Of a stretch of DNA of 40,626 nt, positions 1,561 through 40,301 are shown one piece after another (position 1 is the first letter of the stretch; every line of letters starts with the position of its first letter). The DNA is from a virus. The DNA is taken from positions 1 to 40,626 of IMG/VR virus record IMGVR_UViG_3300017437_000024, one strand, 5' to 3'. The position numbers and the translations under genes were made by a program. A model generated the notes under the pieces. That model searched no databases, had not been told where the DNA came from, and worked only from the letters and a program-made list of their open reading frames with translations.

Positions 1561-1739
1561 AGATTGATCAAGAAGCAAAAAAACTATTTTCCAGTCTCGG
1601 CCGGCTGTCTTGGAAGAAAAGACAGAAGATGTATAGTTCTGAACGTCTTAGACAAATGATGGCAGAGATGGCCCGGAGCAAAAAGGGCATGAAATACCGG
1701 AAAAAGTTATCCACAACGCCTACTATTGCAAAAGGTTAG
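1557..1739 (+). CDS. Small basic protein, 60 aa
   Basis: Very lysine/arginine rich (WKKRQK, RSKKGMKYRKK), with a short amphipathic helix; could bind nucleic acid. The 3' end of the gene contains a perfect DnaA-box-like 9-mer TTATCCACA (1707-1715) and the -35 box of the following promoter, so the coding sequence doubles as regulatory DNA. The final codons may therefore be constrained by that site. Confidence 0.5.
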   Translation: MKIDQEAKKLFSSLGRLSWKKRQKMYSSERLRQMMAEMARSKKGMKYRKKLSTTPTIAKG

Positions 1740-1754
1740 CAATTATATTATAAT
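1707..1754 (+). promoter_or_regulatory. DnaA-box-linked promoter
   Basis: TTATCCACA (1707-1715) matches the DnaA-box consensus. It is followed by -35 TTGCAA (1726-1731), a 17-base spacer and -10 TATAAT (1749-1754). The box begins 42 bases upstream of the -10. The promoter would serve the gene at 1807 and those after it, with a leader of about 45 bases. The same arrangement recurs at 39122 and 39954. Confidence 0.7.
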
Positions 1755-2091: not shown

Positions 2092-2241
2092 ATGAAGTTA
2101 AATTGGATTAAGAGAATAATAAAGTTTCCTTTTTGTTTGGTATTCTGGCCGGTTTGGATGGTGGCAGGATTTCTTTTAACAGATTGGGAAGACAAGGAGG
2201 ACGTAGATTTTTTTAAGAGGAGTATAAATATATTCAAATGA
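2092..2241 (+). CDS. Small membrane protein, 49 aa
   Basis: A basic N-terminus (MKLNWIKRIIK) precedes an aromatic-rich hydrophobic segment of about 20 residues (FPFCLVFWPVWMVAGFLL) and an acidic tail (DWEDKEDVDFF). One transmembrane helix with N-in topology is likely. Its stop overlaps the start of the exonuclease gene. Function unknown. Confidence 0.5.
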   Translation: MKLNWIKRIIKFPFCLVFWPVWMVAGFLLTDWEDKEDVDFFKRSINIFK

Positions 2242-3035
2242 ATAAACTAAAATTAAGAAAACTAGAAAACTTTGTCTTTGATAAGGAGAATCATACCTAT
2301 CAATTAGCGGATCGTTTGTTGGTGGGAGTTACTACTGTGCTGGGAGTCCGAGCTAAAGACTTCTTGAAATGGTGGACGGTGAAAGAGATGTATAATTTCC
2401 TGTTACCGAAGCTCAAAGACATTCAAGGGATCAGCGAAAAAGAATGGGACAAGATATTATTGTCGGGCCGGAAGGCTTGGTTGGACAAAAGTAAAAAAGC
2501 CCTGGTCAGTGGCGGAATAGCCCACGAATGGATTGAGAAATACATAAAAAATAGGATTGTCGGCCGGATTGCAAAAGAATTTCTACCTGATGATCCGAAA
2601 GCCACGGCTTCTATTAAAGCATTTATAGATTGGGAAGATAAACATAATGTGGAATGGTTGGCCTCGGAACTTTGTCTGGCATCGGTAAATGAATTGTTTG
2701 CTGGAACGATAGACTTCGTGGCTAGAATAAATGGAGTTTTAACTTTGGGGGATTTCAAGACGTCTAATCAAACCAGCGAGGATGTAGCGTTACAAACTGC
2801 GGCCTACCACATTTTACTTGATGAAAACTTGTCGGAGGGCGAAAGCCGGCCGGAACAAAGGGTAACGATCAGAATCCCGAAAGACGGTAGTCATTTTGAT
2901 TATCAGAGAATAGATACTGACTTGGAATTTGATAAGTCTACATTCTTAAGGCTCAGGGAAATATATCGTTGGAATATTTATATAGATAATAATTTTAAAG
3001 TCGGAGATGAAAATAAAATAAAATTACAAAAATGA
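2238..3035 (+). CDS. PD-(D/E)XK (RecB/Cas4-like) exonuclease
   Basis: A 265-residue protein with the motif order of the PD-(D/E)XK exonuclease fold: H96 in GGIAHEW, E144 before the core, D159 in GTIDF, D172 and K174 in GDFKTSN, and Q186/Y190 in LQTAAYH. D159, D172 and K174 are the likely metal and catalytic residues. Known relatives act on DNA ends in recombination, replication and packaging. It starts within the stop of the upstream membrane peptide and overlaps the next gene, a possible ssDNA-binding protein. That pairing resembles phage recombination modules (exonuclease plus annealing or SSB protein). I see no helicase motifs. Whether it is an exonuclease or an endonuclease cannot be settled from sequence. 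Confidence 0.85.
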   Translation: MNKLKLRKLENFVFDKENHTYQLADRLLVGVTTVLGVRAKDFLKWWTVKEMYNFLLPKLKDIQGISEKEWDKILLSGRKAWLDKSKKALVSGGIAHEWIEKYIKNRIVGRIAKEFLPDDPKATASIKAFIDWEDKHNVEWLASELCLASVNELFAGTIDFVARINGVLTLGDFKTSNQTSEDVALQTAAYHILLDENLSEGESRPEQRVTIRIPKDGSHFDYQRIDTDLEFDKSTFLRLREIYRWNIYIDNNFKVGDENKIKLQK

Positions 3036-12599: not shown

Positions 12600-12628
12600 T
12601 TGTTTATTACAATTTGAAGTGGTATAAT
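12600..12628 (+). promoter_or_regulatory. Intron-internal promoter for the LAGLIDADG gene
   Basis: TTGTTT (12600-12605), a 17-base spacer and TATAAT (12623-12628) with an upstream TG. The -10 ends 7 bases before the ATG at 12636, so a leaderless endonuclease transcript is predicted, separate from the capsid mRNA. Confidence 0.5.
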
Positions 12629-12635
12629 GGAATGT

Positions 12636-13127
12636 ATGGACAAGATAACCAGAGGCAAGCTTTCAGATTTTGAGATTGGATATATAGCGGGTTTAGTTGA
12701 CGGTGAGGGTTGTATTGGAATACATAAGCATACAGATAATAGGGGAAAATCAAGATTACATTATTTGTATGTAGTAGTATCAAATAACAATCCAAAATGC
12801 CTAGAATTTCTTAAAAAGAATTTTAATGGTTGGATAATCAAAAGAAGGCAAAAAGAAAATTGGAACATTAATTATAAGTGGGGTTTGAGAAGTGCTAGAG
12901 CCCGACAACTACTTGAAATTATTTATCCACATTTAATTCTTAAAAAAGAACAGGCTTTATTAGGAATAGAGTTTGATAATAATAAGATTAGATATAAATT
13001 ATCTGACGAAGAATGGAACAAAAGAGAATCTTATTATTTAAGGATGCGTCAATTAAATTCTTTATATACTAAAATAAAACCTCATCATTTGAAATTGCAG
13101 CCGCAGAGACTAAACGAAAAGACATAA
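12636..13127 (+). CDS. LAGLIDADG homing endonuclease (intron-encoded)
   Basis: A 163-residue protein with one LAGLIDADG helix (IGYIAGLVDGEGCIGI), followed by an alpha/beta core and ILKKEQALLGIEF, the layout of single-motif enzymes that work as homodimers (I-CreI type). It would cut intronless capsid genes to spread the intron. An in-frame ATG at 12627 would add MEC, but it overlaps the -10 box, so 12636 is preferred. The last codons overlap the catalytic core: the R element is coding, and the stop TAA lies in P8. Confidence 0.9.
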   Translation: MDKITRGKLSDFEIGYIAGLVDGEGCIGIHKHTDNRGKSRLHYLYVVVSNNNPKCLEFLKKNFNGWIIKRRQKENWNINYKWGLRSARARQLLEIIYPHLILKKEQALLGIEFDNNKIRYKLSDEEWNKRESYYLRMRQLNSLYTKIKPHHLKLQPQRLNEKT

Positions 13128-15095: not shown

Positions 15096-15131
15096 TTATC
15101 AACAGGTAGCTTTATTTTGTTTTGCTATACT
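15096..15131 (+). promoter_or_regulatory. Promoter of the sugar island
   Basis: TTATCAACA (15096-15104), one mismatch from the DnaA box, lies 30 bases upstream of an extended -10, TG-C-TATACT (15123-15131). The next gene starts at 15193. A palindrome TTAGCTGAGCTAA (15153-15165) sits in the leader and could be an operator. Confidence 0.5.
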
Positions 15132-15192: not shown

Positions 15193-16170
15193 ATGAAGAT
15201 TTGTATTACTGGAGCCGCAGGCTTCATTGGGTCAAATTTTGTGCATTACATGGCTGAGAAATATCCCAGCTATGATTTTGTTTTAGTTGATAAATTAACC
15301 TATGCCGCCAGTGAAAGAGGTTACTCTTGGGATAACGTTGATTGTTTCCGAAGCAGTCCTCGTTTTCGTTTCGTGGAGGCGGATATTTGCGATGAGGAAG
15401 CGATGTTTGACGCAATGTATATGTGTGATGCGGTAGTGAACTTTGCCGCAGAGTCTCATGTTGGTAGAGCGATTGTCAACCAGAAGCGGCACGTCCAGTC
15501 AAACATTGTCGGAGCGGCCAATATTGCGGCAGTGGCTACCAACTATCACATGCGGATGCTCCACATCTCTACCGATGAGGTTTATGGTGAGATAGAAAAG
15601 GGTAGATTTTCGGAGGAATCCCCTCTCCGGCCGCAGAATAGATACGCCGGCTCAAAGGCGGCGGCGGAAGTCTTTACATATTCATTCTTATTCCCACCTC
15701 ATAATTTAGATATTCTATATACACGTTCGGCTAATAATTTCGGCAAGTTTCAATCACAAGAAAAGTTTGTCCACGTTATTGCGGAGTGTATTGCTAAAAA
15801 CAGGCCGATTCCTATTCATGGACAGGGTGAGGAGGTCAGAGATTGGTTGTTTGTCATGGATAATTGCTCCGCAGTGGACTTAGTTCTTCATCAAGGCAAG
15901 CGGGGCGAGTTCTATAATATCTCAGCCCATAATGAGATGAGTAATGCCGCTTTGGCGATCTTGGCTATTAAACATTTTGGGGGAACGATTAAAAACACAC
16001 CGAATCGTCCGGGTAATGATGCTCGTTATGCTTTGGAAACGCATAAATTGGAAAAGCTAGGCTGGCTTCCGTTGGCACAAGGCAAGGATTTTGAAAAGTA
16101 TATGGTCAATACTTTGGAATGGTATATCAAGAAATATAAAAAAGAACATGAAGTATCTGCAATCCGATAG
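15193..16170 (+). CDS. RmlB-like dTDP-glucose 4,6-dehydratase
   Basis: A 325-residue short-chain dehydratase. NAD-binding TGAAGFIG (6-13), active-site T127-D128-E129 in STDEVYG, and Y151/K155 in YAGSK match RmlB, which converts dTDP-glucose to the 4-keto-6-deoxy sugar. RNQP-like QNRYAGSK and the later RDWLFVMDN also fit. First gene of a 12-kb sugar cluster. A related epimerase function on UDP sugars cannot be excluded. No RmlA or RmlC is seen, so the host would have to supply the activated glucose. Confidence 0.85.
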   Translation: MKICITGAAGFIGSNFVHYMAEKYPSYDFVLVDKLTYAASERGYSWDNVDCFRSSPRFRFVEADICDEEAMFDAMYMCDAVVNFAAESHVGRAIVNQKRHVQSNIVGAANIAAVATNYHMRMLHISTDEVYGEIEKGRFSEESPLRPQNRYAGSKAAAEVFTYSFLFPPHNLDILYTRSANNFGKFQSQEKFVHVIAECIAKNRPIPIHGQGEEVRDWLFVMDNCSAVDLVLHQGKRGEFYNISAHNEMSNAALAILAIKHFGGTIKNTPNRPGNDARYALETHKLEKLGWLPLAQGKDFEKYMVNTLEWYIKKYKKEHEVSAIR

Positions 16171-16177
16171 AGATAAT

Positions 16178-17035
16178 ATGAAATATATTTTGTATGGTAA
16201 CGGCTGGATGGCTGGTTTGATAAAGGATTATTTAAGAGAAGATGCTTTCATTAGTAATGAGAAAACAAACGAAGTTTTTGCTTTAGATGTTGGCTTTGAC
16301 GTGGTCATTGATCTAGCGGCTCATACAAACATTGATTGGTGTGAAAACAACAAGAACCAAACATTACAAGACAATGTTTTGGGTGCGGTGAATTTGGCCC
16401 GTATCTGTAAGAATCTGAATAAAAAATATGTTTTCTTTTCCTCTGGTTGTATTTTTGAAAGTAAGAACGAGAATGACTGGAAGGACGAAAACTCCCAACC
16501 TAATCCCCAGTGTTTTTATGCGGAGATGAAGTGGTTGGCCGAGAGATTGATTCAAGAAGTTAACCCCGAGGCTTTAATTGTTCGTCCGAGGTTACCCATA
16601 TCGGAAAAGTCACATCCAAGAAATACGCTTAACAAGCTTTATGGATATAAGAAAATCAATGATACACAAGAGAGCGTTGATGTTGTTGAAGACATGATAC
16701 CGGTGTTAATTGATTTAATTAAGAAAAATGCCGTTGGTATTTATCACTTTGCCAATGGCGGGACGGTTTCACCGGCCGATTTGGCTGGATTGATAGGCAA
16801 CAATTTTTTTGAGATTCGAGTAAAAGAGGTGCAGGATGCAGAATTTTTACTAGAGGGCCGAGCCAAAAGAGTTACAACTTATCTACGATCTGTGAAGATC
16901 CCTTGTTTGCCCCATATTGGTTCACGTATTCTTCAAGTTTGTGAAAACTGGAAAAGGTCGCATAAGGATTGTATGAGGATATCAGAGGCATCAGGACATG
17001 GACCTGACAGCAGTTTAACAGAAGGCAATCCTTAA
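16178..17035 (+). CDS. RmlD-like NAD(P)-dependent sugar reductase
   Basis: 285 residues with a Rossmann start (YILYGNGWMAGLI), DLAAHTNIDWCENN and the SDR Y-x-x-x-K as YAEMK, the pattern of dTDP-4-dehydrorhamnose reductase. The glycine motif is altered (GNGWMAG instead of GxxGxxG), as in other RmlD relatives. The final 25 residues (SHKDCMRISEASGHG onward) look unlike the family and may be an added tail. An in-frame ATG at 16148 overlaps rmlB and is less likely. It could reduce the RmlB product. Confidence 0.7.
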   Translation: MKYILYGNGWMAGLIKDYLREDAFISNEKTNEVFALDVGFDVVIDLAAHTNIDWCENNKNQTLQDNVLGAVNLARICKNLNKKYVFFSSGCIFESKNENDWKDENSQPNPQCFYAEMKWLAERLIQEVNPEALIVRPRLPISEKSHPRNTLNKLYGYKKINDTQESVDVVEDMIPVLIDLIKKNAVGIYHFANGGTVSPADLAGLIGNNFFEIRVKEVQDAEFLLEGRAKRVTTYLRSVKIPCLPHIGSRILQVCENWKRSHKDCMRISEASGHGPDSSLTEGNP

Positions 17036-17047
17036 AGGAGCAAAGGA

Positions 17048-17467
17048 ATGAAGGTTGGAAAAGGTACTAAAGTATGGCATCCGGAGTTAAGCAACATTGG
17101 AGCCTGCGAAATCGGAGAGAATTGTAGGATTCACTCTCACGTCTGGATCGGAGATGGAGTTAAAATAGGTAACAACGTGAAAATTCAAGCATTTAGTTTT
17201 ATACCGGTAGGAGTAACTATTGAGGACAATGTTTTCATTGGACCGAGAGTTACCTTTACGAATGATAAAAAACCGCCTTCCGGTGGGACTCATTGGAAAG
17301 AAACGCTGGTCAGGCGTGGGGCTTCGCTGGGGGCTTCGGTAACAGTGTTGCCAGGCGTTACTATCGGAGAAAATGCAATGATCGGTGCGGGTGCCGTTGT
17401 TACAAAAGATATACCGGACAATGTTGTCGCTTGTGGCGTGCCGGCGGCTATTCATGCCGGTAAATAA
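17048..17467 (+). CDS. Left-handed beta-helix acetyltransferase
   Basis: 139 residues built of hexapeptide repeats ([36 protein letters not shown]), the LbH fold of trimeric sugar O- or N-acetyltransferases. [11 protein letters not shown] resembles the loop before the active-site region in WbpD/QdtC-type enzymes. It has a real Shine-Dalgarno (AAAGGAG), unlike most genes here. Likely acetylates an aminosugar made by the next genes. Its close relation to the gene at 19349 suggests two acetylation steps or two sugars. Confidence 0.8.
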
Positions 17468-17468
17468 A

Positions 17469-18503
17469 ATGTTCAAGATTCCATTTTGTAAAACAACTCT
17501 GGGAGAAGAAGAAAAGAAGGCTATTTGTGACGTGATAGATAGTGGTTGGGTTGTAATGGGGAAAAAGACCCAAGAATTTGAAGAAGCCTTTGCTCAATAT
17601 GTGGGCGGTCAGCACGCTGTCTTTGTTGACAGCGGCACAGCCGCCCTTGACCTTTCAGTCAAATGGTTGAAGAAAAAAAAGATATTTAAGAAAAAGGATA
17701 AGATTGGTGTTCCCTCTCTTACTTTTACATCTACAGTTGAGGTTGTGGTTAATAATGGATTGAAACCCCAATTTTTGGATGTTAATAAAAAAAACCTGTG
17801 CTTACAGCAGGATGTGCTGAGTGGTGGTATTCCTGTCCATCTTATTGGAAACAGGTGCTTATCTCATTCTTGGGTGTATGACTCAGCACATCGGATTCAA
17901 AAAGGCGACGTTAAGGGTTCTTTGGCCTTATGGTGTTATTCCTTTTATGCGACAAAAAACATGTCCACTGTCAATGGAGGTATGATTGTTACGAATGATA
18001 TTAAAGTGGCGGTCTGGCTCCGAAAAGCAAGAGATCACGGCATATCCAAAGGTACGACCGAAAGATACAAGGACGGACAATGGGCTTATTCTATAGACTT
18101 TGTCGGCTGGCGTGAAAAGGCGGATGACTTAAGGGCGGCAATTGGAATAGAGCAGTTAAAGAAATTACCAGGGTTTAATTTGGAAAGAGAACGAGTGGTA
18201 ATGCTTTATAATCAATTGTTGGGATTGAACAGGACCGGTTTGCATCTTTACCCGATTTTGGTAGAAGATCGCACACGTTTTATAGAATTTATGAAGGGAA
18301 GGGGAATACAATGCTCGGTGCATTTCCTGCCGCTTCATCGGATGCCGGCCTATAAGAAATATGCGGTTGGAGCAGATTTACCTAATACAGAATATCTGGG
18401 GGATAGATTGGTGAGCTTGCCTCTTTTTCATTCTCTTACTAATCAAGAGGTTGCCGAAGTCGTGGCGGCTGTTAAAGAATCGGGTTTGTTTATCCATGAA
18501 TAA
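17469..18503 (+). CDS. DegT/DnrJ/EryC1-type sugar aminotransferase
   Basis: 344 residues. FKIPFCKTTLGEEEKKA and SGWVVMGKKTQEFEEAFAQYVG are the typical N-terminus, and the PLP lysine is K163 in YATKNMSTVNGGM. GWREKADDLRAAIGIEQL is the conserved C-half motif. It would transfer an amino group to a keto-sugar, as WbpE does at C3 for UDP-GlcNAc(3NH2)A. Somewhat short for the family (360-390). Start 17469 avoids overlap with the acetyltransferase; ATG 17454 is possible. Confidence 0.85.
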   Translation: MFKIPFCKTTLGEEEKKAICDVIDSGWVVMGKKTQEFEEAFAQYVGGQHAVFVDSGTAALDLSVKWLKKKKIFKKKDKIGVPSLTFTSTVEVVVNNGLKPQFLDVNKKNLCLQQDVLSGGIPVHLIGNRCLSHSWVYDSAHRIQKGDVKGSLALWCYSFYATKNMSTVNGGMIVTNDIKVAVWLRKARDHGISKGTTERYKDGQWAYSIDFVGWREKADDLRAAIGIEQLKKLPGFNLERERVVMLYNQLLGLNRTGLHLYPILVEDRTRFIEFMKGRGIQCSVHFLPLHRMPAYKKYAVGADLPNTEYLGDRLVSLPLFHSLTNQEVAEVVAAVKESGLFIHE

Positions 18504-19347
18504 TACTTGGGCTATAATCGGTCTGGGCTTTATAAGCCAGCGTCACATAGATAGCATTAAAAACATTGGTGATAAATTGTTAATGGCTTGTGATGTAGAT
18601 GAGAGCAAGAAGGAGAAGGTGCCGGATGTGAGATTCTTTAATGATTATAATGTAATGCTTGCCGATCCCGAATTTTCTAAGGTTGATTGTGTAGCTATTT
18701 GCACACCGAATTATTTGCATTACCAAATGATCAAAAAATGCGTTGATGCCGGCAAGAGAGTGCTTTGTGAAAAGCCGTTAGTGATTGATAGCAAGCAATT
18801 AGAAAGTTTATCAGAGAATGTGGGAACGGTTTTACAGCTTCGTTATAACCCAGAAATTATTGAGGCGAAAAAAGAAATTGAAGAACAATTAAAAAAACTT
18901 GAAGATATAAACGAGGGCGTTGTTGCTGGAGAATTGACAATGAAATTAAATCGTGGTGACTTTTATTGGAGGGGCTGGAAGGGCGATGAGGCTCAATCCG
19001 GCGGCCTGCTTTTTAATATCGGTATTCACTATTTTGATTTGATTGTTTATTTACTAGGAACGCCAACTAATTCTTATGCCGATATTCTGACAAAGAGTTA
19101 CGCCAAGGGTCTGCTTATCTATCCCAAGGTTGTGATTTTTTGGGAGTTATCGTTGGAGGCTCCGATGGATAATCAGATTAGAAGATTAAAACTGTTTGGC
19201 AAGAACTTTGATTTAACGAGGAACTTTGATGGATTACATCAAAGAGTTTATGAGGATTTTGTGGCTGGGAAATTAGTCGCTCCTAGTCAAGCTAAGGATG
19301 TAATAAAATTAGTTGAAGAATTAAAAGTTTTAGGTATTAAAAAATAA
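18496..19347 (+). CDS. Gfo/Idh/MocA-type sugar dehydrogenase (WbpB/WlbA-like)
   Basis: 283 residues. N-terminal Rossmann motif (IIGLGFISQRHIDSI), CEKPL (the conserved EKP), and SGGLLFNIGIHYFDLIVYLLG, strongly like WlbA/WbpB which oxidise C3 of UDP-GlcNAcA. The start overlaps the end of the aminotransferase gene, so the two are coupled, just as the two enzymes act in sequence. Length is a little shorter than WlbA (about 315). Confidence 0.85.
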   Translation: MNNTWAIIGLGFISQRHIDSIKNIGDKLLMACDVDESKKEKVPDVRFFNDYNVMLADPEFSKVDCVAICTPNYLHYQMIKKCVDAGKRVLCEKPLVIDSKQLESLSENVGTVLQLRYNPEIIEAKKEIEEQLKKLEDINEGVVAGELTMKLNRGDFYWRGWKGDEAQSGGLLFNIGIHYFDLIVYLLGTPTNSYADILTKSYAKGLLIYPKVVIFWELSLEAPMDNQIRRLKLFGKNFDLTRNFDGLHQRVYEDFVAGKLVAPSQAKDVIKLVEELKVLGIKK

Positions 19348-19348
19348 A

Positions 19349-19834
19349 ATGTTTGATATAGCTAAACACTCAATAGTGGAAGACGATGTGTCAATTGGGG
19401 ACGGCACAAAAATTTGGTATTTCTCCCACGTTAGGACGAAAGCTAAGATAGGCCGGAACTGCAATATCGGAGATTATTGTTACATAGACAAGAAGGTAAT
19501 TATCGGAGATGACGTTCGGATTGGTAATAAGGTTTCTATTTATCAGGGAGCGATTATTAAAGACAGAGTTTTTATAGGTAACGGCACAAGTTTTACGAAT
19601 GTTAAAAAACCCTTTGCTTACAAGAAAGCTAAAAGATACCTTGATACGATTGTTGAGGAGGATGTGTCTATCGGTGCTAATTGCACAATCGTGGCCGGAG
19701 TGAAGATAGGCAGAGGTGCCATAGTCGGTGATGGAGCCGTGGTTATTAGAGATGTGCCGGAGAGAACTTTTGTCGGGGGAACTCCAGCTAAAAAATTAAA
19801 AGATGAAAAACAAATTTATGGAAAAAACAATTAG
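19349..19834 (+). CDS. WbpD/WlbB-like sugar N-acetyltransferase
   Basis: 161 residues, LbH hexapeptide fold (IGDGTKIWYFSHVRTKAKIGRNCNIG). KVSIYQGAIIKDRVFIGNGTSFTNVKKP closely follows the WbpD/WlbB pattern (NNVSIYEG..LEDDVF.GPS..FTNV..P). It would acetylate the 3-amino group made by the aminotransferase. The gene overlaps or abuts the following fusion gene. Confidence 0.85.
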   Translation: MFDIAKHSIVEDDVSIGDGTKIWYFSHVRTKAKIGRNCNIGDYCYIDKKVIIGDDVRIGNKVSIYQGAIIKDRVFIGNGTSFTNVKKPFAYKKAKRYLDTIVEEDVSIGANCTIVAGVKIGRGAIVGDGAVVIRDVPERTFVGGTPAKKLKDEKQIYGKNN

Positions 19835-21965
19835 TTTCGTGATGCCCGTTTATAATGACGGAGATACGGTGGAAAAAGCCGTGAAGTCAATCCGAGATCA
19901 GGATTTACCGGATATTGAGATTATTTTGATCAATGACGGCTCAACGGATAATAGCAAGATAGTTTTAGATGGCTTGAAAGAAAGGGGTCTGGTGGATCAG
20001 GTGCTTCATTTTGAACAGAACCATGGTGCGTGTGTAGCCAGAAACGAGGGGGCGAAGCTGGCTAGCGGCAAGTATCTTTCTTTTCTACCGGCCGATGCCA
20101 TTCTTTATCCTGGCGTAGCAAGGATTTGGTATAGCCACCTAGAAGACTTAAAGGATTATGATTTTCTTTATGGAGGGTATCGTTTCGTGGATGAAGACGG
20201 TGAAGCTCTACCCGGCAACGATCACATCATGGGTCAACCGTTTGATCCTTATTTATTAGAAAGTAATAACTACATTGATGGCTCTTTTCCGATCAGGAAA
20301 GAGTCTTATTGGAAATATGCCAAGATAATGAATCAACTTGATGGTTTATGGGATCCGAATGTTAAGTCATTACAAGATTGGGACTTTTGGCTCTCGGTCG
20401 TTAAGAATGGTGGCAAGGGGCTTTATGTTCAGGATATATTCTTTGGCACAACCATTCCTCACGCCGGAGGTTTGTCTTTTGATTCCTCAAGGAATTGGGT
20501 AGAGAGGACTAATTTTATTAAGGATAAACATAAGATTCCTCACCGAAAACTGTGCGTGGCTTCGTTAGGTGCGGGCTGGCACGCTAAGAGGTTGGCTTAT
20601 ATGCTTAATGCTGACTTTAAAGATATGCCTTCGTTTAAGGCTCATGAGTATGATTCTATTTATTCTATTGGCTTTTATCCCGAATTTGCTGTCCAACAAG
20701 ATCAGATGTTTTTGAATAACCTTTATAATCCGGCTGAGGGTCGGACGCCTGCTAAAAAACTTGTTCATTTTGTGGGAACAGATATCTGGCAGTTATACAA
20801 CGTTTCGCTCCGTTCATTGAAGATTTGGCAGAACTACATGAAAAATGCGGTGGATGAGGTCTTGTGTGAGGCTGACTTTACTCAATCAGAATTAAAAGAA
20901 TTGGGTATTGAAGCTAAAGTTGTACCGTTACCACCAGCTAAGTTATTTGAGGTCCGTCCTTTGCCGAAGGACTTTACTGTTGCTTGTTATATGCCGGCTG
21001 TGAATAGGGAGTTTTATCAACCTCAACAGATGTTGGAAGTAGCCAAGAAGTTATCAGATATTAAGTTTAAGTTTTTCGGTAATCCTACGCAGGTGGGAAC
21101 CGATCCGGCCCTGCCTAATAACATTGAATATTGTGGATATATTGATAATATGGATGCATTTTTAAGTGAATGTTCGGCTATTATGCGTTTTCCGATCCAC
21201 GATGGTTTGCCTATTAGTGTTTTAGAGTTCTTATTAGCAGGCCGGTATTCCTTGCAAAGCGTGCCGGTGCGACATACTCTTTGCTTGCCTAACTTTACAG
21301 TTGACGAGGCGATTAATGGAATTAAAGACCTAAGAGAAATGGCAAAGAATGGAGTGAACCAAGTAGCGTCAGATTATTGGAGGGCGGAATTAAATCATGA
21401 TAAGTTTCGTGAAAGGATTAAAGAGTTGGCAGAATATCATCCTAAACAATACTGGGAGAACCGAGCTAAGGGTTGGGTTGAGCAGGCCAAAGCTATGCCG
21501 ATTGAGGTTGAGGAGGTCAAGAAAGTATTTGAGAAAACTGGTGCTAAATCGGTGCTGGATGTAGGTTGTGGAGATGGTCGTTGGTACCCGCACTTGAAGG
21601 AATGGGGCACCGAAAATTATAAGGGTATTGATATTTCAGAAAATCTTATTAAAGCGGCCCAATTAAGATTTCCGCATGAAAAAGATAATTTTTGGTCAAT
21701 TGAGGTAGAAAAATTAGATAAATTGAGATGGAGTAATTTTGATCTTATATTCTCTTATACCTGCTTTGAACATATCACTGTTGAGGAATGGCCCAGGGCT
21801 GTTGAAGCGTTAAAGAAGGTTGGCAAGAAACTGCTTTTAATTGAACCCACGAATTTTACTTCAAGATATTATTGCCACACTCACGATTATGAAAAGGATT
21901 TTAAGGTCATAGAAAAAGTCCAATTAAAAGATAAGGTGATACTTTTGTGCGATTTACAGTCCTAA
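19818..21965 (+). CDS. Three-domain GT2-GT4-methyltransferase fusion
   Basis: 715 residues. Residues about 1-225: GT2 domain (SFVMPVYNDGDTVEKAVKSI, LINDGSTD near 37-44, PADA near 91-94). About 235-555: GT4-like GT-B domain (VHFVGTDIW near 316, then GLPISVLEFLLAGRY near 462). About 565-715: SAM methyltransferase with VLDVGCGDGRW (motif I, near 578) and YTCFEHI. Such proteins may build and cap a glycan. ATG 19803 would overlap the previous gene; 19818 puts the GT2 domain at the N-terminus. Confidence 0.85.
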   Translation: MEKTISFVMPVYNDGDTVEKAVKSIRDQDLPDIEIILINDGSTDNSKIVLDGLKERGLVDQVLHFEQNHGACVARNEGAKLASGKYLSFLPADAILYPGVARIWYSHLEDLKDYDFLYGGYRFVDEDGEALPGNDHIMGQPFDPYLLESNNYIDGSFPIRKESYWKYAKIMNQLDGLWDPNVKSLQDWDFWLSVVKNGGKGLYVQDIFFGTTIPHAGGLSFDSSRNWVERTNFIKDKHKIPHRKLCVASLGAGWHAKRLAYMLNADFKDMPSFKAHEYDSIYSIGFYPEFAVQQDQMFLNNLYNPAEGRTPAKKLVHFVGTDIWQLYNVSLRSLKIWQNYMKNAVDEVLCEADFTQSELKELGIEAKVVPLPPAKLFEVRPLPKDFTVACYMPAVNREFYQPQQMLEVAKKLSDIKFKFFGNPTQVGTDPALPNNIEYCGYIDNMDAFLSECSAIMRFPIHDGLPISVLEFLLAGRYSLQSVPVRHTLCLPNFTVDEAINGIKDLREMAKNGVNQVASDYWRAELNHDKFRERIKELAEYHPKQYWENRAKGWVEQAKAMPIEVEEVKKVFEKTGAKSVLDVGCGDGRWYPHLKEWGTENYKGIDISENLIKAAQLRFPHEKDNFWSIEVEKLDKLRWSNFDLIFSYTCFEHITVEEWPRAVEALKKVGKKLLLIEPTNFTSRYYCHTHDYEKDFKVIEKVQLKDKVILLCDLQS

Positions 21966-22681
21966 TTCCAACTTATAATAGGGATTATTTGTTGCGGCAG
22001 GCAATCCAGAGCATGCTTGATCAGACGTTTAAGGGTTACGAGATTCTAATAGTTGATGACGGTTCTACTGATATGACCAAAAAGATTGTTTCGGAAATGA
22101 TGGAAAAGGACGATCGGATAAGATATTTAAGATTTGATAAACATCAAGGACTGGTACCGGCCCTCAATTTTGGCAATCGGGAGGCCAAAGGAGAGATAAT
22201 TGTTAAACAAGATAGTGATGACATGAGCCTGCCGAATCGTTTAGAAGTAATTGACAGACTATTTAGTTTGTTTCCTGATGCGGAATTTCTTTATCATGGA
22301 ATGTATCAGACACATGAATCCGAGGAATTTCCAGGCCAACTGGTTAGAAGTTATTTACCGGCCTTGCCAATTGATGAGGGGCGGCTTTTGAAAGAGCAAT
22401 ATATACCAGGTTGCTTTGCATATACTAAGGATTTTATTGAACAAGTGCCCTATAGGGACTTACATTGCTCGGAGGATTGGATGTTAATTCTGGACGCCGT
22501 GTTAAGAAAAAGAAAGGTAATTTGGTGGAACGAAGGGCTTTATGAATACATCCTCCGGCCGGATTCTAATAGTATGATCCATGAGAACACCGGCAACTAT
22601 GAAGAAGATGAAGCTAAAATGAAGTCAATTTTAGAAAAAGAATATGGGGTTACAGACTTTAAGTATGCCATTAGAAAATAA
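21947..22681 (+). CDS. GT2 glycosyltransferase
   Basis: 244 residues, GTG start with AAGGTG 8 bases upstream. Starts RFTVLIPTYNRDYLL, has VDDGSTD and the metal motif QDSDD (near 88-92). It is the first of three similar GT2 genes (21947, 22683, 23896) that share YHGMY and YEY motifs. It overlaps the fusion gene end by 19 bases. Sugar donor and acceptor cannot be told. Confidence 0.85.
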   Translation: MRFTVLIPTYNRDYLLRQAIQSMLDQTFKGYEILIVDDGSTDMTKKIVSEMMEKDDRIRYLRFDKHQGLVPALNFGNREAKGEIIVKQDSDDMSLPNRLEVIDRLFSLFPDAEFLYHGMYQTHESEEFPGQLVRSYLPALPIDEGRLLKEQYIPGCFAYTKDFIEQVPYRDLHCSEDWMLILDAVLRKRKVIWWNEGLYEYILRPDSNSMIHENTGNYEEDEAKMKSILEKEYGVTDFKYAIRK

Positions 22682-22682
22682 G

Positions 22683-23441
22683 ATGTTGGCTAAGCCCAAG
22701 GTAAGCGTAGTCATGCCGGTTTTTAATCAGACTCATTTAATTTCTAATGCCATTCAATCAATCCTTAATCAAACCATGCAGAACTGGGAACTAATAATTG
22801 TGGACGATGGGAGTCAGCAGAATGTGCCAGTTTTTTACGCCCAGACCGGAGTAACTAAATATGTGAGCTTAGTGGACATAGTTAATAGCTTTAAAGACGA
22901 ACGTATATTTTTACATTGGCAACCTCATCAAGGATTGGTAGCCGCCCGAAATGCCGGCAATTCAATAGCGAAAGCCGATGTAATAGCGGTTCAGGACGCT
23001 GACGATCTTTCCATGCCGGATCGGCTAGAGAAGTGTTTGAATTGGATAAACAAGGGGTATGATGTGGTTTATCATGGGGCTTACATTAATATGTGGGAAA
23101 AAGAAAAGTTCTGCATTACTAGAAAATATATGCCAGCTTATAAATTTTCTAAGAAATTTTTATTAACTTCTCAATATATTACGGGTTGGCCAGTCTATAA
23201 AAAAAAGTGTTGGGTCAAAAAACCCTTTCGGGAAGAAACTCAATTTGCTTATGATTGGATGATGTTTTTGGATTGGGCATTTTCAGGTTTTAAGTTTAAA
23301 GATTTGGACGAGGGATTGTATGAATATGTCCGACATGAAAATAGTGCCTCCATTACCTTTGAGCGAGATGGTCGCCGCCAAGAGTCTATGAAAAAGATTA
23401 AGGAGATATTACATAAAGAATATGGACAATTTTGTTTGTAA
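22683..23441 (+). CDS. GT2 glycosyltransferase
   Basis: 252 residues. KVSVVMPVFNQTHLI, VDDGS, QDADD (metal), YHGAY. Homologous to the genes on both sides, pointing to local duplication. Insertion between GT-A strands (VTKYVSLVDIVNSFKDERIFL) makes the nucleotide-binding loop longer than in its neighbours. ATG 22665 (adds MPLENK) is possible; 22683 is 2 bases after the previous stop. Confidence 0.8.
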   Translation: MLAKPKVSVVMPVFNQTHLISNAIQSILNQTMQNWELIIVDDGSQQNVPVFYAQTGVTKYVSLVDIVNSFKDERIFLHWQPHQGLVAARNAGNSIAKADVIAVQDADDLSMPDRLEKCLNWINKGYDVVYHGAYINMWEKEKFCITRKYMPAYKFSKKFLLTSQYITGWPVYKKKCWVKKPFREETQFAYDWMMFLDWAFSGFKFKDLDEGLYEYVRHENSASITFERDGRRQESMKKIKEILHKEYGQFCL

Positions 23442-23464
23442 CCCACATATATTAGTGTTATAAT
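23436..23464 (+). promoter_or_regulatory. Promoter for the HNH gene, predicted leaderless
   Basis: TTGTAA (23436-23441), 17-base spacer, TATAAT (23459-23464) with TG at 23456-23457. The -10 ends 6 bases before ATG 23471. Confidence 0.55.
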
Positions 23465-23470
23465 TATAGA

Positions 23471-23923
23471 ATGAATGATAAATGGAATAAAAAAGTAAAA
23501 TGTAAATGTGGCTGTGGTTCTTTAATACTTAAATATAGAAAAAATAGGATGAGGCAATTTTATATTAAAGGACATCAACCTCACGCAAAAAGTCGTCCCG
23601 ACATGATTGGTAATAGTTGGGGAGGCAATCAAAATTATTTTAAGAAAAATAAATTTTCTGGAGAAAATCATAATAATTGGAAAGGAGGAAGGTGGCTTTA
23701 CTGGAGAAGAAAGGTTCTTGAAAGGGATAATTACACTTGTCAAAAGTGTGGTTATTCAGAAAAAGATATTATGGAGGTGGACCACAAAATTCCTATTTGC
23801 GGAAAAAATAGATTTAAAGAAATGCCAAACATAAATAATTTAATGACACTATGCCCCAATTGTCATAGAAGAAAAACATTAAAAGATAGAAAAATATGCA
23901 AAAGCCGGAGATCTCAATCGTAA
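23471..23923 (+). CDS. HNH endonuclease inserted between GT2 genes
   Basis: 150 residues. An N-terminal CKCGCG zinc knuckle, a basic NUMOD-like linker (GENHNNWKGG), and an HNH core with YTCQKCGYS, VDHKIP and MTLCPNCHRRK (metal cysteines plus the catalytic H of DHK). Own promoter just upstream. The last 28 bases overlap the next GT2 gene, so insertion did not disrupt it. Likely a free-standing homing endonuclease. Confidence 0.85.
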   Translation: MNDKWNKKVKCKCGCGSLILKYRKNRMRQFYIKGHQPHAKSRPDMIGNSWGGNQNYFKKNKFSGENHNNWKGGRWLYWRRKVLERDNYTCQKCGYSEKDIMEVDHKIPICGKNRFKEMPNINNLMTLCPNCHRRKTLKDRKICKSRRSQS

Positions 23924-24681
23924 TGCCAACCTATAACAGAGCCAGAGTAATACAACATGCTATTAGAAGTGTGGTTGACCAGACATTTAAAGATTGGGAG
24001 CTTCTAGTTATTGATGATGGCTCGGAGGATGGCACGCAGAGAGTTGTGGAAAGCTTTGCTAATCCTAGGATTATTTACAAAAAAATAGCTCATTGCGGTT
24101 ATGTTTCGCAGGTGCGGAATTACGGCAATAAACTGGCAAGGGGCGAAGTGATAGTCGTTCATGACAGCGATGATGTGGCTTTCCCGGACCGGCTGGAGGA
24201 GATTTGGCGTGTCTTTCAATGTTTCCCCGATGCTGATTTGGTTTATCACGGAATGTATTTGAGATTTTATGATCCATACCACGATGCTATTTCACGATCT
24301 ATTAGGCCGGCTTTAATCTATGAAAAAGAAAAACTGTTATCTTCACAATATATACCTGGTCAAGTTGCGTATAAAACTAAAAGAATCTTGGAAACTCCCT
24401 ACGATAATAGAATCCGATGCTGTGACGATTATCAAATGCTTTTAGAATTTGCTTTGAAGGATTATAATTTCATGCCGATATTTAAGAATCTTTACGAATA
24501 CTCGGACTCCCCCGACTCTATCAATGTTAGCGGAGAAATGGACGGTAGTCGGAAAAAAGACGTTGAGATTATATTGGAGATTTTAAAGAATAAATATAAT
24601 GTTGATGCAATAGCCGGATTAATTAAAAATACCGTTGATAGTAGTCAAATCCTATCAAGAGAAATAATTACAAAAAAATGA
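23896..24681 (+). CDS. GT2 glycosyltransferase
   Basis: 261 residues. EISIVMPTYNRARVIQHAI, IDDGSEDG, HDSDD metal motif, YHGMY. The C-terminal part (LYEYSDSPDSINV) corresponds to the YEYILRPDSNSM and YEYVRHENSAS of its siblings. The start lies inside the HNH gene. Third member of the GT2 tandem set. Confidence 0.85.
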   Translation: MQKPEISIVMPTYNRARVIQHAIRSVVDQTFKDWELLVIDDGSEDGTQRVVESFANPRIIYKKIAHCGYVSQVRNYGNKLARGEVIVVHDSDDVAFPDRLEEIWRVFQCFPDADLVYHGMYLRFYDPYHDAISRSIRPALIYEKEKLLSSQYIPGQVAYKTKRILETPYDNRIRCCDDYQMLLEFALKDYNFMPIFKNLYEYSDSPDSINVSGEMDGSRKKDVEIILEILKNKYNVDAIAGLIKNTVDSSQILSREIITKK

Positions 24682-25667
24682 AAATAATTACAGTAATGGG
24701 CTGTAGGCCGCATTTGATAAAGTTAGACAAAGAATTACCTCAAGAAATACTTTGGACGGGCCAGCACCATGACTACCGAATGTCAAGTTTGTTTTTTAAG
24801 GAATTGGATATCCCCAAGCCGACTTGGAATCTAAACTGTAAGGGTAATCAGGTAGGAATGATGGTTGATAAGTTGGTTAGTCTTTTTCATAAGTTTAAAC
24901 CGCCATTAGTTCAAGTGTTTGGTGATACCAACAGTTCTATGGCCGGAGCTTTAGCGGCGGCCTACTGTAATATCCCAGTGGCTCATGTGGAATCGGGCTT
25001 GCGAAGTTTTGATATGAGCATGCCGGAGGAGGTGAATAGGGTTATAATAGACCGAATATCTAAGGTTAAGTTTTGTCCTAATAGTTACTCAGCTACTAAT
25101 TTATTGAATGAGGGTATTAAAGATCATGTTTATATTGTGGGCGATCCGTCACTTGACACCTTGGGTAGTTTCTTGCCAATCCCAAAGGGCAGAAATTACC
25201 GAGAATATATATTATTAACAATACATCGTAACTTTACGGTAGATGAGGAGCAAACCCTGAAAAGAATTTTTGAGGTTTTGGGTGGTATTGGAGAAAAGAT
25301 TATATTCCCGATCCACCCGAGGACAAAGAAGAACATCAAGAAATTCGGTATTAAATTGCCGGATAACATTAAGCCGGTTCTCCCGCAGTCTTATAAACAA
25401 TCTTTAACTTTAATATCTAATGCCAAGAAAGTAATTACGGATTCCGGTGGAGTTCAAAGAGAGGCTTTTTGGATGAACGTGCCGGTAATTATCTTGAGAA
25501 AAGAAACGGAATGGATTGACATAATTGGAAAGAAAGGCGGTGTTTTAGTTGGTTATGATCCGGAGAAAATCCTAGAAGCTGTTAAGAACTTTAGGGGCTA
25601 TGTCAATTCTCCGCCGGAGTTCGGGGCGAAGAAAAAGATAAAAGAGACATTGTTCAAATTTATATGA
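24678..25667 (+). CDS. UDP-N-acetylglucosamine 2-epimerase (WecB/WbpI-like)
   Basis: 329 residues of the GT-B epimerase fold. FGDTNSSMAGALAA, HVESGLRSFDMSMPEEVNRV and TDSGGVQREAFWMNVPVI are near identical to the family signature. The usual HRxEN is here HRNFT, a change at a conserved place. Shorter than WecB (about 375). In a cluster with WbpB/E/D-like genes, a WbpI role (epimerising UDP-2,3-diacetamido-glucuronate to the manno form) is attractive. A WecB role (UDP-ManNAc) is the alternative. Confidence 0.88.
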   Translation: MKIITVMGCRPHLIKLDKELPQEILWTGQHHDYRMSSLFFKELDIPKPTWNLNCKGNQVGMMVDKLVSLFHKFKPPLVQVFGDTNSSMAGALAAAYCNIPVAHVESGLRSFDMSMPEEVNRVIIDRISKVKFCPNSYSATNLLNEGIKDHVYIVGDPSLDTLGSFLPIPKGRNYREYILLTIHRNFTVDEEQTLKRIFEVLGGIGEKIIFPIHPRTKKNIKKFGIKLPDNIKPVLPQSYKQSLTLISNAKKVITDSGGVQREAFWMNVPVIILRKETEWIDIIGKKGGVLVGYDPEKILEAVKNFRGYVNSPPEFGAKKKIKETLFKFI

Positions 25668-25915
25668 AGAAATTAAGTATAAAAAAAGTTGAGATTTGGT
25701 GGCACGATGCCTTTAGTTACGACAAAATTAACAAAGTAGAATGGTTAAAAGAACAATTAGAAATTGGTAACCTAAATAAAAATATTGGTTTTCTTATAGG
25801 AGAAAATAAAGATTGGGTAGCGATTGCGGTTAATATCTGTGATGAATTTGATGCGGCCTCAGGAACTTGGTTTATTCCTAAAAAATGGATAATTAAAAGG
25901 AAATTATTAAAATGA
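25664..25915 (+). CDS. Small phage protein, 83 aa (W-x-DA family)
   Basis: VEIWWHDAFSYDK...GFLIGENKDWVAIAVN...IPKKWIIKRKLL resembles a widespread small phage protein with a W-D-A start and a Gly-hydrophobic-E-x-(D/N) core, of unknown role. It is clearly more A/T-rich than its neighbours and overlaps both by 4 bases. Possibly a recent arrival in the cluster. Confidence 0.6.
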   Translation: MKKLSIKKVEIWWHDAFSYDKINKVEWLKEQLEIGNLNKNIGFLIGENKDWVAIAVNICDEFDAASGTWFIPKKWIIKRKLLK

Positions 25916-27105
25916 AAAATTTAGAAGAAAAGAAGAAATTTAATGAATTATTACCAATTAAAACTGGCGATCAATTAAATATTTATTTTCATGTTTCGGA
26001 AAACTCTGGTGTGGGATATTACAGACAATATCTGCCAGCCTTTAAGTTAAAGGAAAGCGGACTGGCTAATGTCTTAATCAGTGATTTCCGCTGGGGTTTG
26101 GGCGATCATGTTGAACCGAATATGAATGCCTTATTTGATCTAATGAATTGGGCTGACATTGCGGTTGTCGGACGCCTTGACGACGGTAACTTTTATGCCA
26201 GATGGGGCGGGATAAGAGAGTTTTTTAATATCCCGATAGTTTTAGACACTGACGATAATGTCAGATTTGTGCGTCCACATAATCCAGGTTATTTGGGATA
26301 TCACCCCAATTCTGAGGCCCTAACTTGGAATAAATACGGTGTGGCTAAAGTATTTGATGCTTTGACGGTTTCTACCCAGGACCTAAAGGACTTCCATAGC
26401 AAAGAAAATCCTAAAATATATTTACTACCTAACAATCTTGACATGAAGGAGTGGAACAGCCACCCCCAAAAAGTTTTTGACGATGGTTTTGTGAGAGTTG
26501 GGTTCATAGCTTCAGCCGCCCATACGGAAGGTATTCAGATAATAAAAAAAGCTTTGCTGGAATTGATGCAAAAATATCCACAGGTTAAGTTTTTAATCAC
26601 CCACGTTTATCAGCATTTATTTTTTGATTTTCCTGAAGAAATTAGAAAAAGGATTGAGCCTATTCCTTGGATGTCTCTAGAGCAATGGCCGAAGGGCTTA
26701 AAAAGCATTGGTCTGGACATTGGCCTCGCTCCGTTGGCGGATAATATGTTTAATCGTGCCAAGTCTAATCTGCGTTGGATGGAGTATTCTGCTTGCGGAA
26801 TACCTACCATTGCCTCGCCGGTCAAGCCCTATTTATGTATTCAAGATAATAAAGATGGTATAATGGCTAAAGAGAGTCACGATTGGTTTTTGGCAATGGA
26901 AAAACTGGTTGTTGATAAAGAATTGAGGCATAATATAGGCAGGGCCGCTTATGAAAGAGTGAATACAGAGTTTAATGTTGACAACAATCTTGCTTTGTGG
27001 GTCAATGCTTATAGAGAGGTGCATGAGAAGTTTCACAATTACTTCGGAAGCAAGAAAAGATTTGTGGCTCTTGGCAAGGGTAAATATAGATCAATTAAGT
27101 CATAG
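25912..27105 (+). CDS. GT4-type glycosyltransferase (GT-B fold)
   Basis: 397 residues. NSGVGYYRQYLPA is the acceptor-side start, LDTDDN... and LLPNNLDMKEW the middle, and NRAKSNLRWMEYSACGIPTIASPVKPY the donor-binding E-x7-E-like C-terminal motif. Last gene of the island, before a strong terminator. The tail KKRFVALGKGKYRSIKS is basic and may sit near a membrane or glycan. Confidence 0.8.
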   Translation: MKNLEEKKKFNELLPIKTGDQLNIYFHVSENSGVGYYRQYLPAFKLKESGLANVLISDFRWGLGDHVEPNMNALFDLMNWADIAVVGRLDDGNFYARWGGIREFFNIPIVLDTDDNVRFVRPHNPGYLGYHPNSEALTWNKYGVAKVFDALTVSTQDLKDFHSKENPKIYLLPNNLDMKEWNSHPQKVFDDGFVRVGFIASAAHTEGIQIIKKALLELMQKYPQVKFLITHVYQHLFFDFPEEIRKRIEPIPWMSLEQWPKGLKSIGLDIGLAPLADNMFNRAKSNLRWMEYSACGIPTIASPVKPYLCIQDNKDGIMAKESHDWFLAMEKLVVDKELRHNIGRAAYERVNTEFNVDNNLALWVNAYREVHEKFHNYFGSKKRFVALGKGKYRSIKS

Positions 27106-39031: not shown

Positions 39032-39115
39032 GGCGTGGTAAACCGGTAAAGATTCGGACCTGCCTGTAGAGCAGGTGGCCCTCGGCCTAGCTAGGAGCAT
39101 TACCTAGACACGCCA
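39032..39115 (+). tRNA. tRNA-Tyr(GTA)-like cloverleaf with unusual D and T arms
   Basis: 84 bases in class II tRNA geometry. Acceptor GGCGTG (39032-39037) pairs with CACGCC (39109-39114), with one mismatch at the seventh pair. T8-A9 are present. The anticodon stem CCTGC/GCAGG holds the 7-base loop CTGTAGA (U33, GTA). Variable arm GGCC-CTC-GGCC. T stem CTAGG/CCTAG with a 7-base loop AGCATTA that keeps C56 but lacks T54-T55 and A58. A73 follows; no CCA. The D stem (CCG/CGG) is shifted by two bases. Either a degenerate phage tRNA-Tyr or a tRNA-like RNA. The minus strand fits less well. Confidence 0.45.
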
Positions 39116-39121
39116 CAAAAG

Positions 39122-39167
39122 TTATCCACAACCCCCTATTTGCTATTCTTGAAGTTTATTTTATAAT
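39122..39167 (+). promoter_or_regulatory. DnaA-box-linked promoter of the structured RNA region
   Basis: TTATCCACA (39122-39130), TTGCTA (39140-39145), 16-base spacer, TATAAT (39162-39167). Box-to-minus-10 distance is 40 bases. Confidence 0.65.
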
Positions 39168-39173
39168 TAAATT

Positions 39174-39356
39174 AAAGTTTCGGTTGGTTAGGACAACGGG
39201 AACGGAAAGTCCGCCTGTCCTAACAAGGCGGGCTTTCTGTTTAGTGGTCAAGGGGTAAGCGATTAAGACCTTAAATTAAATCGCAGGTTGGACCGTCCCG
39301 AAAGCGGGGAAACTTCGGGGTAACTCAAAACTGAAAAAGGGGGGTAGGGGGGTTAG
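39174..39356 (+). ncRNA. Structured RNA with alternative helices
   Basis: Helix A: GTTAGGACA (39187-39195) with TGTCCTAAC (39216-39224). Helix B: GAAAGTCCGCC (39205-39215) with GGCGGGCTTTC (39227-39237), 11 pairs with one U-G. A and B interleave, so they exclude each other or form a pseudoknot. Downstream are GCGATT/AATCGC (39259-39284) and CCCG-AAAG-CGGG helices, then G-rich runs. There is no gene in 39006-39396. No known riboswitch or RNase P/tmRNA signature is complete. Confidence 0.5.
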
Positions 39357-39396
39357 TCAGGTAATCTAAAACTGTCTGTTAACGTTAAAAGTTAGT

Positions 39397-39639
39397 ATGA
39401 ATAATTTAGAGATTAAGTTAAACGAATTACAAGAAAAAACTAAACATTGGTCAAATTATTGGGATATTGATTTTCCTTTGGATAGAGAGTTTAGATTGTC
39501 CGCTAGTTTGAAATTTGACAAAAAGAAAAAAATTAATAATTTAATTTGTATTTGTGTTTATTGTGGATCTGAAGTTAAAAGAAGGCTTTTTAATAGAAAG
39601 GCCGTTTGTTTTAATTGTAAACATGGAAAATCTTTGTGA
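39397..39639 (+). CDS. Zinc-ribbon protein, 80 aa
   Basis: The N-terminal half is a charged helical region with W residues (KTKHWSNYWDIDF), and the C-terminal half has CVYC and CFNC, a zinc ribbon. It lies downstream of the structured RNA, which could form its long 5' leader. Confidence 0.6.
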   Translation: MNNLEIKLNELQEKTKHWSNYWDIDFPLDREFRLSASLKFDKKKKINNLICICVYCGSEVKRRLFNRKAVCFNCKHGKSL

Positions 39640-39784
39640 ACATGGAAGATATCTAAGTGGTAAGTGGTGTTGCTTGGTTTGTTTTGCCGATAAGAACCGA
39701 GATCAATTAAAAAAATCGGCAGAAAAAATTGAATTTGAATCTGAAATGGCGGATATGGATTTAAGAAGACTAACTCAAAGATAA
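39623..39784 (+). CDS. Small Cys-rich protein, 53 aa
   Basis: CEHG followed by CCLVC, then a charged helix (DQLKKSAEKIEFESEMADMDLRR). Starts 17 bases inside the upstream gene; the ATG at 39623 excludes frame shadowing by that gene. Confidence 0.5.
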   Translation: MENLCEHGRYLSGKWCCLVCFADKNRDQLKKSAEKIEFESEMADMDLRRLTQR

Positions 39785-39785
39785 T

Positions 39786-39968
39786 ATGCTTCAAGGTTTT
39801 CGGATGGATCGGGACTATTGTAATGGCAAGCCGGTCTATGATAAAAAGTCGGCGGTCACCGCCCGAAATAAACGATGGAAGGAGGACCATATTAAATTAA
39901 GAATATACCCCTGTTTTCAATGCAACGGTTGGCATCTTACCAGTCAAGAAAAGTTTTCCACAACTTAG
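39786..39968 (+). CDS. Zinc-finger protein with CxxC...WHLTS, 60 aa
   Basis: RIYPCFQCNGWHLTS is a motif common in small phage/bacterial zinc-binding proteins (Y-x-C-x-x-C-G-x-W-H-L-T). The basic N-terminal half could bind nucleic acid. The 3' end carries the DnaA-box-like TTTTCCACA. Confidence 0.65.
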   Translation: MLQGFRMDRDYCNGKPVYDKKSAVTARNKRWKEDHIKLRIYPCFQCNGWHLTSQEKFSTT

Positions 39969-40000
39969 GTATTTGCAAAGAGTTGGCAATATGTTATACT
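39954..40000 (+). promoter_or_regulatory. DnaA-box-linked promoter, predicted leaderless
   Basis: TTTTCCACA (39954-39962), TTGCAA (39973-39978), 16-base spacer, TATACT (39995-40000). The box-to-minus-10 distance is 41 bases. The GTG start at 40008 lies 7 bases after the -10. Confidence 0.6.
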
Positions 40001-40007
40001 TAAGAAA

Positions 40008-40301
40008 GTGATAAATATAAAAGAACCATTTTATACGGCTGGTAAAAAGTTTGGTTGGCAGGGAAAGTCTATAGGATTGGGAATAAATCTTAGATTATTA
40101 GATGGGGACGGAGATTTGGAATTGACGGTCGGAGACTCAAAAGACATTTGGACAATCAATAAAAATAAGGCCAGAGAATTAGTTAATAGATACCAATCCT
40201 ACTATCAGGCAAGAGGAACTAGATTGGGAGTTTTGCCTTGGTATGAGTTTGAGAAAGTTCAAGAAAAGGTCGTGGAGGTGGTTCAACCAGCAATGTTATG
40301 A
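40008..40301 (+). CDS. Hypothetical protein, 97 aa
   Basis: GTG start 7 bases after a -10 box. The protein is alpha/beta with FYTAGKKFGWQGKSIGLGIN and DSKDIWTINKNKARELVNRY. No family recognised. Overlaps the next start by 4 bases. Confidence 0.6.
   Translation: MINIKEPFYTAGKKFGWQGKSIGLGINLRLLDGDGDLELTVGDSKDIWTINKNKARELVNRYQSYYQARGTRLGVLPWYEFEKVQEKVVEVVQPAML

Follow-up and report, generated by a model that had tools for sequence, protein, structure and literature searches.

What reads the DnaA-box-like 9-mers that stand a nearly fixed distance ahead of three promoters in this phage genome? The sequence under study is an IMG/VR virus record of 40,626 nt (the window, by which we mean this whole stretch of DNA). 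It carries a terminal repeat of 99 bp at its ends and was therefore read as a circular genome of 40,527 bases, on which the three boxed sites become neighbours, with gaps of 832 and ~2280 bases between them. They lie in one early, non-structural region, all on the + strand, of a genome that also encodes a terminase, a portal and a major head protein. The preliminary description had given box-to-(−10) distances of 42, 40 and 41 bases, and these are exact: TTATCCACA at 1707 precedes TATAAT at 1749, TTATCCACA at 39122 precedes TATAAT at 39162, and TTTTCCACA at 39954, which we take to be a DnaA box variant, precedes TATACT at 39995. The elements of the three sites are as follows.

1706..1715, + strand: site 1 box GTTATCCACA, the consensus DnaA box with a leading G
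1726..1731, + strand: site 1 −35 element TTGCAA, 10 bases past the box
1749..1754, + strand: site 1 −10 element TATAAT
39121..39130, + strand: site 2 box GTTATCCACA
39140..39145, + strand: site 2 −35 element TTGCTA, 9 bases past the box
39162..39167, + strand: site 2 −10 element TATAAT
39953..39962, + strand: site 3 box GTTTTCCACA
39973..39978, + strand: site 3 −35 element TTGCAA, 10 bases past the box
39995..40000, + strand: site 3 −10 element TATACT

At all three sites the box matches the consensus TTWTCCACA and lies upstream of the −35 element without covering it. The shared sequence extends beyond the 9-mer named earlier, as AAAAGTTWTCCACAAC matches exactly at each site, with starts at 1702, 39117 and 39949. 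The −35 and −10 elements are 17, 16 and 16 bases apart at sites 1, 2 and 3, which is spacing of the sigma-70 type (hexamers 16–18 apart); the match to the −35 element itself is partly circular because the list of −35 sequences included the sites' own TTGCAA and TTGCTA. Scored against TTGACA/TATAAT, sites 2 and 3 reach 10 and 9 of 12, and promoters of this general kind are not in excess over shuffles in the region of sites 2 and 3 (4 found, mean 4.0). Downstream of the site 1 −10 element come an ORF at 1807–2040 and then an ORF for a PD-(D/E)XK exonuclease at 2238–3035.

The simplest explanation would be chance, with a common 9-mer falling ahead of AT-rich, −10-like sequences. The bare 9-mer is only mildly enriched in the phage (4 copies against a mean of 1.23, with 3 of 100 shuffles reaching 4), and its counts are weak evidence. 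The combination is another matter: the phage has three TTWTCCACA boxes with a −10 element 38–43 bases on, against a shuffle mean of 0.036, and none of 1000 dinucleotide shuffles reached three such pairs, in a range that was chosen after the sites had been seen. The fourth TTWTCCACA, at 12923, has no leading G and no −10 element at such a distance; it is inside an ORF for a LAGLIDADG endonuclease (window 12627–13127, Pfam 1.4e-7), which lies just before the major head gene.

A fourth, looser case had also been proposed ahead of the sugar island. It is present, and we do not count it as a member, since boxes with at most one mismatch are common in the phage (22 against a mean of 11.7) and a spacing of 30 is not a peak in any of the sets covered here.

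15096..15104, + strand: looser box TTATCAACA, with the −10-like sequence TATACT 30 bases on

The sugar island (window 15193–27105) sits between the head genes and a putative tail region and contains sugar-nucleotide and glycosyltransferase genes, namely an epimerase, a DegT aminotransferase, a GFO/IDH oxidoreductase and glycosyltransferases.

The same layout recurs in bacterial genomes. Among 84,980 species genomes, a search for AAAGTTWTCCACAAC followed 22–44 bases on by TATAAT returned 73 stretches, 27 of them titled as Patescibacteria lineages and 9 as Streptococcus, and the patescibacterial stretches often carry the same TTGC −35 in the same place. GTTWTCCACAN{15,45}TATAAT matched in 12 of 12 genomes, which had been preselected for having a match, with no backward-control matches. 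In even samples of individual groups, GTTWTCCACA stands ahead of TATAAT in 98 of 118 genomes of the Paceibacteria order that includes G006, a Yonathbacteria record (247 matches against 7 backward-control ones), and in 68 of 110 from the order of the Moranbacteria record G002 (171 against 4). Both counts include the genome that had been picked for having a match, and they overstate the evidence, since related genomes share orthologous promoters that do not count as independent. A phylum-wide sample gave a weak result (61 of 239 genomes), and the class of G009, a Saccharibacteria record (Saccharimonadia), showed a small excess (11 of 90 genomes, 13 rows against 4 backward controls), which makes these bacteria weak candidates as carriers. 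Lactobacillales, the order of the Streptococcus record G010, showed no excess (34 of 98 genomes, at least 40 rows against 32 backward controls). From these group samples, the boxed promoter class belongs to certain orders and not to bacteria at large.

The spacing is conserved in candidate host genomes and in independent viral contigs (see below), and the refutation test that the preliminary description had set for its own proposal therefore did not refute it. Among the 150 matches listed for the order of G006, the distance to the −10 element is 38–42 bases in 88, 43–47 in 5 and 48–52 in 37, so that the phage spacing of 40–42 falls in the main host peak and a second peak stands one helical turn further out. 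The corresponding numbers for the order of G002, again among 150 matches listed, are 68, 22 and 23; the main peak is the same, and the second is blurred and comes partly from one orthologous family. Spacings of 40 and 50 are expected to be favoured over 45 if a protein contacts the polymerase from a single helix face. Inverted boxes also occur in the order of G006 (81 rows in 118 genomes, with a peak at 37–39), so orientation is a preference and not a rule. With sharp peaks in hosts and in viruses (see below), none of the shuffles reaching three sites and no excess in Lactobacillales, chance is refuted for the set of three sites and as an account of the layout has become practically untenable; any one of the sites may still be without function.

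The phasing recurs in viral contigs. Scans of IMG/VR for the exact three-part promoter (box, TTGC, −10) with box-to-TTGC gaps of 8–12, 13–17 and 18–22 returned 54, 12 and 38 stretches, which reduce to 48, 10 and 17 independent viral contexts. Within the first class, 46 of the 48 contexts have a gap of 8–10, and the gaps in the phage under study are 10, 9 and 10. In a wide-gap viral scan, spacings of 40 and 50 had the largest counts among the matches listed, a pattern that is less sharp without duplicates. A distant phage from a spring, MW202497, whose terminase is 39% identical to that of our phage in alignment, carries one box 49 bases upstream of TACACT and another 50 bases upstream of TACAAT. 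Its second box stands just before a PD-(D/E)XK gene, as site 1 stands before ORF 1807 and the exonuclease at 2238, and the two PD-(D/E)XK nucleases align at 25% identity.

Single-protein searches with the terminase and the exonuclease found no close viral relative, and a three-sequence terminase alignment led to 80 loci. Among these 80 terminase relatives, 16 contigs have GTTWTCCACA and few of them have the promoter; box and −10 element are 39–43 bases apart in four (one with CATAAT as −10) and 53 apart in two more. The closest relative seen, L355, has a major head protein 76%, a portal 56% and a terminase 50% identical to those of the phage, an unevenness that suggests mosaicism. The L355 locus begins only 2.7 kb ahead of its terminase gene, too close for the early region to be included.

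Which protein could read the box in such hosts? A Bac_DnaA_C match was found in 47 of 51 genomes sampled from the order of G006. It is the only one in 46 (above the cut-off in 45, with the sole match of one genome below it), and G403 has two. Of 20 dnaA loci in this order, 19 were readable, and all 19 encode a DnaA with the PRQ and GGRDHTTV signature of domain IV, residues that presumably read the box. The order therefore has a DnaA with domain IV. Boxes lie near dnaA in 13 of the 19 loci (23 boxes in total), and in four loci a box stands 95–144 bases upstream. The alpha C-terminal domain was matched in 51 of 51 sampled genomes, and a contact with the polymerase from upstream is therefore possible.

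The class could be real and yet be read by another host protein, either a nucleoid protein or an unknown DnaA-like regulator, or by the polymerase, with GTTATCCACA as the target and DnaA uninvolved. The leading G, which lies outside the 9-mer and belongs to the promoter motif, fits such a reader, as do the flanks, which are partly conserved in the phage. We nevertheless regard this as unlikely: the core is exactly the DnaA box consensus 9-mer given as TTATCCACA in the text of PMC8203912, and the retained domain IV signature, the boxes near dnaA and the single C-terminal domain match in 46 of the 51 sampled genomes all argue for DnaA. It is the only box-reading candidate that we found for these promoters, and it would have to bind and activate them.

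We think it likely, if well short of certain, that the phage uses a Paceibacteria host promoter class, activated by host DnaA, for its early genes. The three sites would then be promoters for the early genes of a phage infecting Paceibacteria (Patescibacteria) and copies of a class made up of the consensus DnaA box GTTATCCACA, a TTGC-type −35 element 9–10 bases downstream of it and a standard −10 element. With a transcription start 7 bases past the −10 element, the box would lie at about −54 to −44. Host DnaA would bind there as an upstream activator on the same helix face as RNA polymerase, which would explain why the spacing is 38–42 or 48–52 and rarely between, and it would recruit or stabilise the polymerase, with the alpha C-terminal domain or sigma as the probable contact. 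The early genes could thus be read by host polymerase and host DnaA with no phage factor needed, and early output would follow the replication state of the host.

DnaA could also act in the opposite sense, repressing these promoters or being titrated by the boxes, in which case the promoters would report low DnaA or the phage would dampen host initiation. Repression by DnaA is on record for some promoters (PMC8203912, in the text available), and we still find this distinctly improbable, as the box lies upstream of an uncovered −35 element at all three sites and the phased 40/50 spacing is a requirement for activation from upstream but not for repression or titration.

A paceibacterium as the phage host is suggested mainly by the promoter itself. 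Of 383 genomes in the candidate host class, 9 have a terminase relative, the best at 36%, and Vibrio phages reach 33% terminase identity. The homologues in the host class are no better than those of other distant phages, and the terminase does not single out a host.

Stretches of three host genomes (~1.57 Mb including 72,000 N) contain 113 TTWTCCACA, 56 intergenic and 57 intragenic. The leading G is present in 38 of the 56 intergenic boxes against 7 of the 57 intragenic ones, and A at position 3 in 47 against 14. Most host boxes have no obvious −10 element, and the promoter test was passed by 19 of the intergenic and 7 of the intragenic boxes; one of the three genomes, G460, is a poor fit. Ten downstream proteins were picked for good promoters from 23 candidate rows. 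They comprise MraZ, RecA, a response regulator, a peptidase-S24 (LexA-like) protein, mechanosensitive-channel, peptidoglycan-binding, RhuM/Fic and BRO-N proteins, and two without a family. Host operon starts are approximate because the ORFs come from a simple caller.

The case of mraZ extends across the order of G006, in which 25 of 30 mraZ loci (L309–L338) have a box within 320 bases upstream. In all, the 10.2 kb of these regions contain 26 boxes, most of them inverted and 37–39 bases from a −10 element, where fewer than one would be expected at the density of 113 per ~1.49 Mb (without N). GTGGGA-like repeats adjoin the mraZ upstream boxes. Control of the division cluster by DnaA and MraZ is possible.

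The recurrence of one layout at many promoters of Patescibacteria and their phages suggests that DnaA switches genes on. More tentatively, and with our doubts slightly outweighing our belief, Paceibacteria DnaA may be a general transcription activator as well, with a phased box at anywhere from several to dozens of genes in each genome, among them recA, a response regulator, a LexA-like gene (peptidase S24) and, with an inverted box, most mraZ genes, and with phages reading the replication state through the same boxes. If this is true, transcription, division and replication would be set by one protein.

The preliminary description had left two options, activation by host DnaA or another factor reading the box, and a link between origin and early promoters. 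The conserved spacing supports the first. For the second, the boxes would form a phage replication origin opened by host DnaA and transcription, as proposed for lambda. All three sites do lie in one early region beside the terminal repeat, and no replicative helicase, primase or polymerase was the best match of any of the ~33 phage proteins scanned. The boxes are, however, single and isolated, 832 and ~2280 bases apart, and not the cluster that an origin requires. Host genes, recA and mraZ among them, have the same architecture. GC skew, which rises monotonically round the whole genome, is uninformative about an origin. An origin here seems improbable to us, and the link with early promoters that the preliminary description proposed gains no support from an origin-like cluster; such an origin and activation by DnaA are not mutually exclusive.

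DnaA is known as a transcription factor and is known to act on lambda, as the available texts of PMC8203912 and PMC3985674 describe. The former reports that nrdAB is activated by DnaA stabilising the complex of polymerase and DNA. As at the promoters here, consensus boxes lie in the promoter regions of DnaA-regulated genes such as E. coli nrdAB, Caulobacter ftsZ and gcrA, and B. subtilis sda. These chromosomal promoters are treated singly there, with no shared spacing given (the word 'spacing' does not occur in the available text of PMC8203912), whereas the promoters described here share one box at a constant, phased distance throughout a whole order and its phages. At lambda pR/ori-lambda, host DnaA acts on phage transcription, as we propose for the present phage; PMC3985674 cites an interaction of DnaA with polymerase and footprinted DnaA boxes at lambda. 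The same text, as available, places the lambda boxes downstream of the pO promoter, in contrast to the boxes upstream of the −35 element described here.

Class I and class II upstream activators depend on the face of the helix and can have their site just upstream of the −35 element. Compared with these, the activator here would be the replication initiator and its site a 9-base, non-palindromic box. In Patescibacteria, whose genomes are small, little is known of how transcription is coordinated with replication and division. A DnaA box at fixed spacing, shared by many promoters and present at most sampled mraZ genes, would amount to a simple global circuit. As a sequence signature, the boxed promoter would also help to link uncultured phages with such hosts. 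In the open-access literature, subscription papers being mostly outside it, we found no description of a fixed, helically phased DnaA-box promoter class in an order of Patescibacteria and its phages, and the main text of PMC13059738, as available, contains neither 'promoter' nor 'DnaA'.

Finally, the surroundings of sites 2 and 3 have features of their own. The GTG of ORF 40008–40301 begins 8 bases after the site 3 −10 element (window 39995–40008), so the transcript from site 3 may be leaderless. A tRNA-like cloverleaf with a long variable arm lies directly upstream of site 2 (window 39033–39118). Its anticodon loop reads CUGUAGA (GUA, Tyr by position) and its T loop is the non-canonical AGCAUUA; it folds at −30.8 kcal/mol with a z of −1.93, and ARAGORN finds no tRNA in it. 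On the + strand after the site 2 −10 element, no ORF of at least 60 aa comes before one that starts at 39397, and the first part transcribed from this promoter is therefore probably a structured RNA. Between 39174 and 39390, right after the promoter, there is no Rfam match, and 39174–39320 folds well (z −2.95). By eye, a pseudoknot may form there between GTTAGGACA/TGTCCTAAC and AAAGTCCGCC/GGCGGGCTTT. Two motifs after promoter 2 also occur elsewhere: GGTTAGGACA in tRNA-like sequences of the host stretches, and GGTTAGGACAAC after a boxed promoter in the viral contig L463.
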